Shown here: positions 17,448-25,004 of the stretch, piece by piece
Layout of the letters: the number at the start of each line of letters is the position of its first letter
Numbering within the stretch: position 1 is the stretch's first letter
Virus record (IMG/VR): IMGVR_UViG_3300030389_001619
Span: 1-27,899 of that record
Reading direction: 5' to 3' (one strand)
DNA: 27,899 bases
From: a virus
Program-made: the position numbers and the translations under genes
Notes under the pieces: generated by a model
What the model was told of the DNA's origin: nothing
Seen by the model: the letters and a program-made list of their open reading frames with translations, nothing else
Database searches by the model: none

Positions 17448-18439
17448 ATAATCAACAGATGCAAATGGGAGAAGATAGACCTGTAGGTATAGGAGAAATG
17501 GATTTTGCGTTTCTATCAGAAAATGATCCTGCAGTAGAACCACAGAATGCAGCCATCAACATGAAAAAAAACTTAACACCAGAAGAACAAAAAGAAATAG
17601 CAGGTTTAGTTCCTTACGTAGAAAGATTCTTTGTACTTAATTACAAAGCAGAAACTGGAGACTATCCACCTGAGCCTACTATGGAACCTGAAGGTGGTGG
17701 AGGTATAACTATAGATGAATATAGAGGTATGAGTGATGAAGACAGACTTGCTAACTCTACAGAAGGACAAGAAGTATCTTTAAACCTAAAACCTAAATCT
17801 TCTTTTGATAGAAGTCCTAGTGAGTTACCACAAGCACTTCCTGTAGAAGCACCAGAGATGGAACAAGCTGTACAGCAACCGGAACAGAAACCTGTTGAAC
17901 AACTACAGGAATCTCCTGTTAAAGAACCACCAATGATGCAAGAAGGTGGAGACGTTGAAGAAGAAAAACCTCAAAAGGCGAGTAAAGAACCTGTGCCAGT
18001 AGGGCCTGTAGGAGAGATAGATGTAGAAGGGAAAGATCGTTCTGGTGTAGCTGATGATATACCTGTAAAAGCAGATGGTTTTGTATTGAGCAGAGGTGCT
18101 GTCATAGCAAACGGCAAGATGTACATAAAAGAAGTTATACAAGATGCTATAGATAATTTAAAAGAAAAAGGAATAGAATTAGACACGTCTGAGACACCAG
18201 AGAAAGCAGAAGACATATTAATATCAAACGGTGAGGTAATCATACCAGACATTATCGCACAAGAAATAGGATATAAGAGATTAGAAAAGATGAATAAAAG
18301 AGGTGAAGAACTAACAGAAAAGCTGATAGCTGAATACGAAGCTGGGCAGCAACAACAGCCTCAACCACAGATTAAAGCACCTTTTGAGCAGGCTCCTAAG
18401 AAGACTGCCTTCAAGGAAGCTAAACAGAGTTTTAGTTGA
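17438..18439 (+). CDS. acidic virion-type protein of unknown function, 333 aa
   Basis: The start at 17438 overlaps the lysozyme stop by 10 bases; the frame is open further upstream to 17378, but that part lies inside the lysozyme gene, and ATG codons at 17459 and 17465 are also possible. The protein has an acidic helical N-terminal half, a Pro/Glu/Gln-rich linker with many EQ and EP pairs (about residues 110-195), and a compact C-terminal domain with ADGFVLSRGAVIANGKMYIK and SNGEVIIPDIIAQEIGY, two similar strand-turn-strand units. I recall this last pattern from marine phage structural clusters, without known function. Gln-rich C-terminal tail. It is the last gene before the RNA element at 18456-18525. 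Confidence 0.6.
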   Translation: MVVNNQQMQMGEDRPVGIGEMDFAFLSENDPAVEPQNAAINMKKNLTPEEQKEIAGLVPYVERFFVLNYKAETGDYPPEPTMEPEGGGGITIDEYRGMSDEDRLANSTEGQEVSLNLKPKSSFDRSPSELPQALPVEAPEMEQAVQQPEQKPVEQLQESPVKEPPMMQEGGDVEEEKPQKASKEPVPVGPVGEIDVEGKDRSGVADDIPVKADGFVLSRGAVIANGKMYIKEVIQDAIDNLKEKGIELDTSETPEKAEDILISNGEVIIPDIIAQEIGYKRLEKMNKRGEELTEKLIAEYEAGQQQQPQPQIKAPFEQAPKKTAFKEAKQSFS

Positions 18440-18454
18440 TGATAACTAAAAGTT

Positions 18455-18488
18455 CCAGCCACCCGAATTGCCTCGGCACTGGATTTTT
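18455..18488 (+). terminator. possible terminator within the first RNA hairpin
   Basis: CCAG (18455-18458) pairs with CTGG (18479-18482) around an inner CCGA/TCGG stem, and five T follow at 18484-18488. This could be a weak rho-independent terminator that lowers or sets the transcript level between the lysis and capsid genes. The stem has an internal loop, and the same fold is repeated downstream without a T run, so another role is equally likely. Confidence 0.35.
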
Positions 18489-18525
18489 ATAAACCCGTAA
18501 ACAGCCACCCTCGTAAGAGGCACTG
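18456..18525 (+). ncRNA. two tandem covarying RNA hairpins upstream of scaffold and capsid genes
   Basis: Copy A (18456-18481) and copy B (18502-18525) have the same plan: CAG, CCAC, a four-base stem, a loop, the matching stem, CA, CTG. The outer CAG/CTG and the asymmetric CCAC/CA internal loop are identical in both. The inner stem differs but stays paired (CCGA/TCGG in A, CCTC/GAGG in B), and loops are ATTGCC and GTAA, the latter a GNRA-type tetraloop. Changed yet compensated pairs between two adjacent copies are strong evidence for a conserved RNA structure. It lies in the 102-base gap before the scaffold gene; copy B ends 16 bases before its ATG, so it could affect ribosome binding. Confidence 0.65.
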
Positions 18526-18541
18526 AGAAAGGAATAGTAAA

Positions 18542-19438
18542 ATGGCAAAAAGAAAGACTAATGTACGCAATAAAGCAGAAGCACTTGAAATAGACCCTCG
18601 TGGAGATATGTACAAGGGAAAAGACAGAGTAACTACTGCTGAGGAAGAAGAAACAGAAACTGAGGACACTGACATCAAGGCCACGATGGAAGCCACTCCA
18701 GAGGTAGAAGGTTTTATAGATTCCACCCAACCTGAAAGTAAAGAGGAACCAGTTCAGGAAGATGAAGGTAAGTATAAGAAAAGATACGATGACCTTAAAA
18801 AGTATTACGATCAGAAGCTGTCTGAATGGAAGCAAGAAAAGGAAGTCTTAGAAGCACAAAGTAAAGCTGCTGAAAAAGCACAACCTAAGTATGCTCCACC
18901 AAAGACACCGGAAGAACTTGATAAGTTTAGGGATCAGTATCCAGATGTATACCAAGTTGTAGAAACCATATCTCACAATATGGCAGCGAAACAAGTTGAA
19001 GACCTTCAAGCTGAAATAGGTAGATTGAGTGAGAAAGAAAAGAAACTCAAAGTGCAATCAGCCTACAAACAGCTTCTGAACAATCATCCAGATTTCGATG
19101 AGATCAAGAAATCACCTGAGTTTTTAGGATGGTTAGAACAACAACCCAAAAGCATTTCTGAGGGTATTACAAAGAACAATACCGATCCTGTTTGGGCAAG
19201 TAGGACTGTTGATTTGTATAAAGCGGACATGGGTATGAATAGGAAACCGACTTCTGATAAATCTAAACAGGCTGCCAGAGCCGTGACTAAAACTGCTGCA
19301 AAGCAGATAAACACTACTGGTAAGACTGGAAGGGTTTGGAAGATGTCTGACATTCAGAAACTCAAGCCATGGGAGTTTGAGAAGTATGAAGCGGAGATTG
19401 ATCAGGCCGTAAAATCTGGTCAAGTTGTAAATGATTAA
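18542..19438 (+). CDS. capsid scaffolding protein
   Basis: The 298-residue product is highly charged and helical: a basic start, a very acidic region (EEEETETEDTDIK and on, about 36-80), a coiled coil with YKKRYDDLKKYYDQKLSEWK, a second helical region with YPDVYQVVETISHNMAAKQV, and a C-terminal basic helix ending QKLKPWEFEKYEAEIDQAVK. Composition and its place immediately before the major capsid gene are typical of scaffolds, which direct shell assembly and then leave, with the basic C-terminal helix binding the coat. GAAAGGA stands before the start. No protease domain is seen. Confidence 0.8.
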   Translation: MAKRKTNVRNKAEALEIDPRGDMYKGKDRVTTAEEEETETEDTDIKATMEATPEVEGFIDSTQPESKEEPVQEDEGKYKKRYDDLKKYYDQKLSEWKQEKEVLEAQSKAAEKAQPKYAPPKTPEELDKFRDQYPDVYQVVETISHNMAAKQVEDLQAEIGRLSEKEKKLKVQSAYKQLLNNHPDFDEIKKSPEFLGWLEQQPKSISEGITKNNTDPVWASRTVDLYKADMGMNRKPTSDKSKQAARAVTKTAAKQINTTGKTGRVWKMSDIQKLKPWEFEKYEAEIDQAVKSGQVVND

Positions 19439-19462: not shown

Positions 19463-20419
19463 ATGGCTACTATGTCATCCGCTGCCGGATACCAAAACTT
19501 ACCGGTTGGTAACTGGGCACCAGCGATATACAGTCAAAAAGTTCTCAAGTATTTCCGTAGGGCATCAGTCGTAGAAGCTATTACTAATACTGACTACACT
19601 GGGGAGATCGAGAATTTTGGCGATACGGTAAACATCATCAAAGAACCAACTATCACAGTCAAAGACTATGCTAGAGGTCAAACTGTAAATACAGAGAACC
19701 TAGACGATAATCAAATTCAATTGACTATCGACCAAGGTAGTTACTTTGCATTTAAAGTAGATGATATCGAAGAAAGACAGTCACATATCAACTTTGAAGC
19801 ATTAGCAACCTCTTCAGGTGCTTATGCATTAAAGAAGAATTATGACTATAATGTGTTAAAGTACATTTTTGATAACGCTGTAGCATCTACAGGTTCATTA
19901 GGAACTCAAAGCACATCAGCTAACACTGGTGATGAAGTTGCTAATCTAGTATCTCAAGCTGCTACTGAATTAGATAAAAACGATGTACCAGAAGAGAACA
20001 GATGGCTCGTTGCACCACCTCAGTTTTATGAAGTGTTAAGACAAGCTGGTTCTAAAATTATGGATATGTCTATCACTGGTGGAGGAGCATCTCCTCTTCT
20101 AAACGGTAGAGTTACCGATAGTAAATTACATAACTTTGATTTATATGTAAGTAATGCAATTGCTGTTGGTTCTACTGGTAGTGCGGCTACCCAAACTTTT
20201 GGATCATCAAGCACAGCTGGTCAAACATTAATCCTATACGGACATATGTCTGGCGTTGCTACTGCATCTCATATTGCAAAGACTGAAGTAATAAGAGACC
20301 CAGATAGTTTCTCTGACATCGTAAGAGGATTACATGTTTATGGTAGAAAAGTTCTAAGAGCTGAATCTGATACAGGCTTTAAAGGCGTGTTCAAAGGGCT
20401 CATGGACTTAGACTCTTAA
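19463..20419 (+). CDS. major capsid protein
   Basis: The 318-residue product begins MATMSSAAGYQNLPVGNWAP and fits the HK97-fold coat proteins of short-tailed phages: an N-terminal arm with YSQKVLKYFRRASVVEAITN, the strand-rich E-loop region (GDTVNIIKEPTITVKDYARG), a long spine helix (SHINFEALATSSGAYALKKN), and an A-domain with RWLVAPPQFYEVLRQA and SNAIAV, ending with RGLHVYGRKVLRAES. It has a perfect AAAGGAGG ribosome-binding site, as expected for the most abundant virion protein, and follows the scaffold gene. DNA has more GCT/GGT-type codons than the AT-rich small genes, consistent with high expression. Confidence 0.88.
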   Translation: MATMSSAAGYQNLPVGNWAPAIYSQKVLKYFRRASVVEAITNTDYTGEIENFGDTVNIIKEPTITVKDYARGQTVNTENLDDNQIQLTIDQGSYFAFKVDDIEERQSHINFEALATSSGAYALKKNYDYNVLKYIFDNAVASTGSLGTQSTSANTGDEVANLVSQAATELDKNDVPEENRWLVAPPQFYEVLRQAGSKIMDMSITGGGASPLLNGRVTDSKLHNFDLYVSNAIAVGSTGSAATQTFGSSSTAGQTLILYGHMSGVATASHIAKTEVIRDPDSFSDIVRGLHVYGRKVLRAESDTGFKGVFKGLMDLDS

Positions 20420-23467: not shown

Positions 23468-25004
23468 TACCTCGATCATATCACCATTTAACGCAAGCTG
23501 TGCAGGCGGTTTAGTATTGAACAAAGATGTGTACAGCATGTCTCCGGGTGAAGCACTACAGCTTACAAACTTTGAGCCAGACATTACTGGTGGTTATCGT
23601 AGAATAAATGGCACGACTAAATTTAACACGAACATAGTACCACAAGTATCTTCATCTACAGAAAGAATAATGTTCTGTGCAATATTCAATGACTTAGTGG
23701 TTGCTGGTCGTGGAGGTTCAATATTCACAGGAACTACAAGTGGTAGTTGGACAAGTAGAGCTACAGGTAAAGGAACGGAATATACATATGATTTTGATAG
23801 ATTTAATTTTGATGGGACTGATAAAATTATTATAGCTACAGGTTCTACTAATGCTTTCACTCTAAACACTAGCTACGCAGAAGATATAATAAATGGCACA
23901 GGTGGAGGGACAGCACCGACAGCACCAAAGTTTGTAAAGACATTTGCCAACCACATGTTCTACGCAGGCATGAGTAACAGTAAAGCAGAAGTGATATTTA
24001 GTGCACCGTTTGCAGAAGATGACTTTGACGCTAGTGATGGTGCAGGATCATTTAAAATAGGTACAGAAGTTACAGGCATGAAAGTTTTCCGTAATGAATT
24101 ATTTATCTTTGGAGAAAACAAGATATTTAAACTTACAGGAACTAGCTTATCTAACTTTGCACTTGCAGAAGTGGCGAAAAGTGTTGGTACCATTGCACAT
24201 CATTCTATACAAGAACTGGGAGGAGACATTATATTCTTATCAGCTGATGGACTAAGAACAATCGCTGGTACAGAAAGAATTGGTGACGTTGAATTGGGCA
24301 CTGTATCTAAACAGGTACAGGAAAGAATAAATGAAATTGGTTATGACAACGTTACAGCAACGGTTATTAGAAACAAAACACAATATAGATTGTTCTATCC
24401 TGCCACTGGTGGGCTAGAATCTGTACAGAAAGGTTTAATTGCTGTAATTAAAATAAACCCAAACACAAAACAAATGGGTTATGAATACTCAGACTTGAAA
24501 GGATTAAAAGTTGCTGATTGTGATTCAGATTTAATTAGCAATGTAGAAACTACTATACATGGTGGGTATGATGGTTATATCTACAAACAGGATTCAGGTA
24601 ACGTATTCACCAGAGCATCTGGCACAAGTATTATAGATGCTACGTATAGGTCACCAGATATAGTAATGGGTGATGCAGGTATAAGAAAAAGTATGCAAAG
24701 AGTAAACTTAAATTGGAAACCTGAAGGAGAGGTAAGTGCCAGTTTATTTGTACGATATAACTACGATGACGTAAACACACCACAGCCTAATGTAATTAGT
24801 TTAGCTACATCAGGAAGTGGTGCTTTGTACGGAACAGCGTTGTTTGGTACAGCTGCATACGGACAAGGTGATTTGCCTATCACAAGACAGAGTGTCGAGG
24901 GCTCTGGTTTTTCAGTGGCAATCAAAATAACAGACACAAGTACAAACATACCTTTTGGAATAAAAGGTTTTCAATTAGAGTTCACACCGGGAGGGAGAAG
25001 GTAA
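23460..25004 (+). CDS. tail nozzle / stabilisation protein (P22 gp10, T7 gp12-like)
   Basis: The 514-residue product begins with a typical opening, SIISPFNASCAGGLVLNKDV, then GEALQLTNFEPDITGGYRRI, followed by many strands with repeated G-x-x-x-F/Y-x-G turns, as in a beta-propeller (for example NHMFYAGMSNSKAEVIFSAP, FRNELFIFGENKIFKLTG, SADGLRTIAG). The last part (about 400-514) forms a platform domain ending FQLEFTPGGRR. Such proteins close the tail tube tip and hold the packaged DNA. Its order behind the adaptor supports the call. It starts by an 8-base overlap and ends directly at the fibre gene. Confidence 0.7.
   Translation: MPDTSIISPFNASCAGGLVLNKDVYSMSPGEALQLTNFEPDITGGYRRINGTTKFNTNIVPQVSSSTERIMFCAIFNDLVVAGRGGSIFTGTTSGSWTSRATGKGTEYTYDFDRFNFDGTDKIIIATGSTNAFTLNTSYAEDIINGTGGGTAPTAPKFVKTFANHMFYAGMSNSKAEVIFSAPFAEDDFDASDGAGSFKIGTEVTGMKVFRNELFIFGENKIFKLTGTSLSNFALAEVAKSVGTIAHHSIQELGGDIIFLSADGLRTIAGTERIGDVELGTVSKQVQERINEIGYDNVTATVIRNKTQYRLFYPATGGLESVQKGLIAVIKINPNTKQMGYEYSDLKGLKVADCDSDLISNVETTIHGGYDGYIYKQDSGNVFTRASGTSIIDATYRSPDIVMGDAGIRKSMQRVNLNWKPEGEVSASLFVRYNYDDVNTPQPNVISLATSGSGALYGTALFGTAAYGQGDLPITRQSVEGSGFSVAIKITDTSTNIPFGIKGFQLEFTPGGRR

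Follow-up and report, generated by a model that had tools for sequence, protein, structure and literature searches.

The window analysed here is a stretch of 27,899 nt of viral DNA (IMG/VR record IMGVR_UViG_3300030389_001619), in which two small hairpins stand directly in front of a putative scaffolding protein gene. The features of the locus are the following; in the hairpins the strands of the internal loop are enclosed in square brackets.

18454..18483, plus strand: hairpin A, tccag[CCAC]ccga-ATTGCC-tcgg[CA]ctgga, first copy of the CNAC/CM module; covariance model match of 31.1 bits
18459..18462, plus strand: long strand of the hairpin A loop, CCAC (CNAC); letters 3 (A) and 4 (C) are invariant in alignment A1
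18477..18478, plus strand: short strand of the hairpin A loop, CA; CC or CA in relatives
18484..18501, plus strand: linker between the hairpins, 18 nt (8-26 nt in relatives), in which ACCG or CCTACCGA is frequent
18502..18525, plus strand: hairpin B, cag[CCAC]cctc-GTAA-gagg[CA]ctg, second copy; covariance model match of 27.6 bits
18505..18508, plus strand: long strand of the hairpin B loop, CCAC, at the same CNAC position as in copy A
18521..18522, plus strand: short strand of the hairpin B loop, CA, from sequence comparison with relatives
18529..18535, plus strand: AAAGGAA, the scaffold gene's Shine-Dalgarno region, 3 nt 3' of hairpin B
18542..19438, plus strand: gene for a putative scaffolding protein of 298 aa (phrog_13678, PHROG match 4e-54), between the portal and coat genes
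19463..20419, plus strand: major capsid (coat) gene (phrog_267 major head protein, 5e-61); relatives are annotated as P22-type coat

From its position and its predicted shape, with disorder at the N-terminus, long helices and two paired helices at the C-terminal end (mean pLDDT 72), we infer that the gene at 18542..19438 probably encodes a scaffolding protein. The name is kept as putative, because the function of the phrog_13678 family is given as unknown by PHROGs and a structure search gave no meaningful match among solved structures; no known RNA-binding domain was found in the protein. Four residues of the stretch 80-85 (KRYDDL), K80, R81, D84 and L85, do not vary among 25 scaffolds; this motif is probably structural, since a similar one is found in Slicky01, which lacks the RNA element.

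Two hairpins sharing one internal loop

An earlier note on this DNA had described two hairpins with identical internal loops, and they are present as described: CAGCCAC-N-CACTG occurs twice in the window (18456-18481 and 18502-18525), with a start-to-start spacing of 46 nt, and has 0 occurrences in 100 dinucleotide shuffles. The inner stems, CCGA/TCGG in A and CCTC/GAGG in B, are changed on both sides at two of the four pairs, and hairpin B, which has a GUAA loop, ends 16 nt 5' of the scaffold ATG at 18542. The outer stem of hairpin A is composed of 5 bp (TCCAG/CTGGA), so that its span, 18454-18483, is longer than first reported. The GNRA tetraloop of hairpin B was rejected as a functional feature, in that relatives have GTGA, GTAG, ATTA and others at this point. 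The folding energy of the hairpin stretch is ordinary (z -0.85); as the energy of the single sequence is unremarkable, the case rests on comparison.

The element belongs to no RNA family in Rfam; the earlier note had not recognised it as a known family. A search of Rfam 15 with E values up to 5, covering 18380-18620 of the window and 33480-33620 of the HMO-2011 locus (L203), returned only a chance snoRNA match (E 4.1), and at the gathering score the element had no match in the whole window or in 16 related loci. The sole Rfam match of the whole window at gathering is a glutamine riboswitch (RF01739, 7402-7451, plus strand, 53.4 bits), which is followed by a Shine-Dalgarno sequence at about 7461 and by a lysine-rich small reading frame from 7474. 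An intrinsic terminator was also considered and rejected: no terminator-like site is found at either hairpin on the plus strand, and the relatives run straight into the Shine-Dalgarno. Between the scaffold and coat genes of HMO-2011 (L203 32385-32640) and CRP-345 (L205 34760-35040), a TTGACA...TATAAC pair can be seen by eye, possibly a separate coat promoter; it is not listed by the pattern scan.

Conservation, covariation and position of the module

Capsid homologues retrieved from IMG/VR have the module in front of the same gene. An exact pattern scan with variable gap gave mostly chance matches, yet the first relatives came to light there. The module that emerges is an outer helix closing with G-C, a long strand CNAC, an inner helix opening with C-G and a short strand CC or CA. 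Its internal loop is 4x2 (5'-G[CNAC]C / 5'-G[CM]C) and is flanked by short helices on both sides; in the rod modules described below, the inner helix sometimes opens with U-A or U-G. It is found 5' of the putative scaffold gene in HMO-2011, in pelagiphages HTVC033P/103P/104P/115P and in the roseophages CRP-x, and it has the same placement in Rhizobium, Sinorhizobium, Vibrio and Aeromonas phages. More distant phages have the loop CTAC/CC instead of CCAC/CA, and the stems differ almost completely, as in gtagg[CTAC]ccgtt-aacgg[CC]cctac, agcgg[CTAC]ccgata-tatcgg[CC]ccgct and aggag[CCAC]ctagat-atctgg[CA]ctcct. In Vibrio phage CHOED and the Aeromonas phages one module, ATAC/AC or ACAC/CC, was read by eye. 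Slicky01 and RHph_TM3_14A, both outgroup phages, have the scaffold family and no motif.

Pairing was measured in an alignment of 30 copies made with MAFFT (A1), where 92.6% of cells are paired in the proposed register and 26-42% once the partner strand has been slid; shuffling lowers the covariation score from 0.80 to 0.24. These sequences were chosen by a descriptor demanding at least three pairs per stem, which in the A1 statistics favours the three inner pairs of either helix, and the sequences within a clade are related, so that cell counts are not independent events. RNAalifold recovered the same structure from the MAFFT alignment without guidance. A larger alignment of 112 matches (70 distinct rows), fitted to the covariance model itself, has 91.9% of cells paired and a covariation of 0.74. 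In a descriptor scan of 63 distinct pre-scaffold regions, 58 contain the module, where 0.45 would be expected from shuffles, and two modules in 34 of the 63, against 0 in shuffles. For HMO-2011-type phages the two stems were anchored by the loop letters only, and 83% of the cells of stems 1 and 2 are paired against 23-50% when slid; neither this slide test nor the protein-blind scan described below selects for stem pairing. Stem 2 of the rods exists in many versions (ctaacc/ggttag, ctatg/catag, tcatc/ggtgg, caatc/gattg). G-U occurs in 106 of 828 rod pair cells, a descriptive count because the stem-listing scanner, in this as in its other tallies, requires pairing; the G-U pairs argue for an RNA rather than a DNA element. 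The controlled tests are the slide controls, the shuffles and the paired share of pattern matches (117/120).

The position of the module is equally constrained. Covariance model R1, run on both strands of 99 loci (611 kb), gave 112 matches, and all 112 adjoin the scaffold start on the sense strand, between -54 and +114 nt relative to the estimated start. A scan blind to proteins, which used the loop letters alone, was made over 2.9 million viral contigs of IMG/VR and found at least 120 loci; 117 of the 120 listed are paired rods, 115 of which were placed directly 5' of the scaffold gene by an automatic test, while the remaining two listed proved on inspection to be pre-scaffold as well (L447, where the distance had been miscounted, and L459, at a contig end). 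The hairpin proximal to the Shine-Dalgarno ends 12-21 nt 5' of the start codon and 1-8 nt 5' of the Shine-Dalgarno, so that no proximal copy includes the Shine-Dalgarno in its hairpin; the rods end 9-19 nt 5' of the scaffold start codon. The putative scaffold is the only gene consistently downstream of the element, and the element thus has one feature expected of a translational operator, a conserved RNA structure directly 5' of the ribosome-binding site of one gene.

Across whole records, the only credible model match away from the scaffold is in HTVC115P, at 24554-24584 on the minus strand (L429 2555-2585): tggag[ATAC]ccat-atgg[CA]ctcca. It lies 15 nt 5' of the start of gp40, a giant 5.7-kb gene, and hints at a second regulated gene; the element is therefore not confined to the scaffold gene. 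A further match (G008:7262) falls within a coding region and was judged to be chance. Scanning host genomes for the rod gave chance matches in GC-rich genomes and two contigs of a marine MAG; the latter (L310 and L364, Neomarinimicrobiota, MED589) carry an HMO-2011-type rod and are probably phage DNA binned with the genome.

The earlier note had proposed a covariance model with a search for homologues, and held that its idea would fall if none stood at the same place or if their inner stems were unpaired. Throughout a broad clade of phages the module keeps this place, and both of its stems, the inner and the outer, show strong compensatory change, so that the idea withstood the test. The observation of the two hairpins is confirmed, and it is the comparison that is decisive.

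Two-site architectures and their evolution

Most lineages have two modules, arranged as tandem hairpins, as a long-loop hairpin, or as one rod with two facing loops. In the linkers of the tandem hairpins (window 18484-18501; L131-L161), ACCG or AACCTACCGA is frequent. The rod is carried by the HMO-2011-type phages (80 loci); that of HMO-2011, gttgg[CTAC]tcact[CC]ccatac-CCGACA-gtgtgg[CTAC]ggtgg[CC]ccaac, contains the same loop twice in opposite orientation. Rods were also recognised by eye in Sinorhizobium phage phiM6 and Rhizobium phage N3_19, where the second long strand has 5 nt.

In the clade around L157-L199 the first module is split: one half is formed by the last part of the coding sequence upstream, the other by bases around the stop codon of that sequence, and 8-118 nt separate the two. 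The helices of the split module covary (ctgatac/gtatcag, ttgatac/gtatcaa, ctgaga/tctcag, ctagaca/tgtctag, ctagtca/tgactag), which argues that a second module is maintained despite the codon constraint. In this clade the upstream gene encodes VPP... near its end, and its codons there are constrained because they pair with bases around the stop codon of the gene.

Only one module was recognised in CRP-2, -9, -13, -603, -235 and -738, CHOED, Aeromonas 1233 and MQM1, so that a dimeric binder would not be strictly required; because of these isolates and of the extra HTVC115P copy, the simplest scheme of two sites and one gene fails in places. In a tree of 40 representative scaffolds, the states tandem, rod, single and none need 6 changes against 19.4 when shuffled: the architectures are clustered on the tree.

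A candidate translational operator

The loop letters are fixed while the stems vary, the module is present twice in more than one geometry, and its distance from the ribosome site is constant; together these features suggest a translational operator that is recognised by a protein, which may well be a dimer. In phage P22 the scaffolding protein (gene 8) acts after transcription to repress its own synthesis, which makes the scaffold the first candidate ligand here and the coat protein the second. The leader of the scaffold mRNA would present two copies of one 4x2 recognition loop, in helices whose letters are free to vary; a dimeric assembly protein in excess, most likely the scaffold, otherwise the coat, would bind both loops and hide the Shine-Dalgarno a few nucleotides downstream, so that scaffold synthesis would stop, and it would resume when capsid assembly has consumed the free protein. 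We give about an even chance to this reading, drawn from sequence comparison, in which the element acts in cis and its two sites serve repression by a phage assembly protein that binds as a dimer, the scaffold being the likeliest candidate.

Several other explanations have to be weighed. The element sits between structural genes on one strand, has a strong conserved secondary structure, and lies in a region (18200-18700) where a pattern scan finds no promoter-like site, all of which would suit an mRNA processing or stability element, at which a nuclease or RNA-binding factor makes or protects a 5' end and raises scaffold and coat mRNA. Sites of the RNase III type, however, need long duplexes of about two turns and the predicted helices are mostly 3-8 bp and broken by the internal loop, for which reason an RNase III site was rejected; moreover, a stability hairpin needs neither near-invariant loop letters nor a fixed distance from the Shine-Dalgarno, and we regard this explanation as unlikely. 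The earlier note had left the choice between a translational operator and a processing signal: the constant Shine-Dalgarno placement favours the former, and the latter gained no positive support. Because the phages infect a wide range of hosts (SAR11, SAR116, roseobacters, rhizobia, Vibrio, Aeromonas), the ligand could instead be a conserved host RNA-binding protein, for example a ribosomal protein, through which the state of the host is gauged; but the module goes with one phage scaffold family and was not found before host genes in the sequences searched, and the E. coli 16S, 23S and 5S rRNAs hold no module beyond one poor AGAC/AC match, which also led us to reject an rRNA mimic, so that a host-protein operator is somewhat less probable still. 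If the hairpins served to keep the ribosome site open or to block upstream interference, as an enhancer or insulator of translation with no dedicated ligand, their place just before the Shine-Dalgarno would be explained; stable stems would suffice for this, and neither two copies nor a near-invariant CNAC/CM loop would be required, which leaves a small probability for it.

A small-molecule riboswitch with two tandem aptamers is brought to mind by the small hairpins and conserved loop, which recall the guanidine-II layout. We consider it very improbable, since the element has no Rfam riboswitch match, precedes nearly always one and the same structural gene, and has no conserved alternative pairing between linker and Shine-Dalgarno (mean run 4.5 against 4.61 permuted, in a test of upstream linkers only). 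A linker switch hiding the Shine-Dalgarno looked plausible in a few clades (CTCCT/AGGAG) and was dropped because the permutation gave no excess. Finally, the ordinary folding energy of the window copy alone would agree with chance, an alignment artefact or an inverted repeat acting at the DNA level; this is refuted by the 58 of 63 regions, the slide controls, the G-U pairs and the specificity of strand and place, and its probability is negligible.

The proposed operator can be compared with known systems. The P22 feedback has the same place in the head operon, immediately upstream of a P22-type coat gene, and the same action as is proposed here; to our knowledge it has no defined structured RNA operator, whereas here the RNA is defined from sequence and the feedback is proposed. 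The thrS mRNA operator, whose domains imitate tRNA anticodon arms, also has two structured sites just 5' of the Shine-Dalgarno, where dimeric threonyl-tRNA synthetase binds and blocks the ribosome; in the phages it is an internal loop that the two sites have in common, and neither the gene nor the likely protein is related to those of thrS. The coat operators of MS2, Qbeta and PP7 are single hairpins with a bulge and a loop at the ribosome site, bound by the dimeric capsid protein, and they share with our element the small size and the place, and the reader that is known there and proposed here; they differ from its duplicated internal loop in dsDNA tailed phages. The guanidine-II (mini-ykkC) riboswitch likewise has two small tandem hairpins with a common conserved loop, but that loop is terminal, while here the conserved letters are in the internal loop and no Rfam match exists. 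The C-loop, an RNA 3D motif, is an asymmetric internal loop too (PMC8570644, PMC3854523), and CNAC/CM is likened to it by loop asymmetry alone, as a lead only.

More tentatively, and with a somewhat lower probability than for the operator itself, the elements may form a two-site operator class in dsDNA tailed phages, in which a dimeric scaffolding protein would read two CNAC/CM loops, in tandem or facing inward in a rod, and would couple scaffold translation to assembly, with an architecture that changed within the clade and both sites kept.

Scaffold feedback has been discussed since P22, and we know of no defined RNA site for it. The cultured carriers, phiM6 (Sinorhizobium meliloti 1021), HMO-2011, HTVC033P, the CRP phages and CHOED, make this feedback directly testable. 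HMO-2011-type phages are a dominant and broadly distributed marine viral group (PMC9038755); this group and its relatives infecting SAR11, roseobacters, rhizobia and Vibrio carry a structured RNA that is absent from Rfam, and its two-loop design with freely exchanged stems offers a compact case for the study of RNA-protein recognition and of the evolution of operator architecture.
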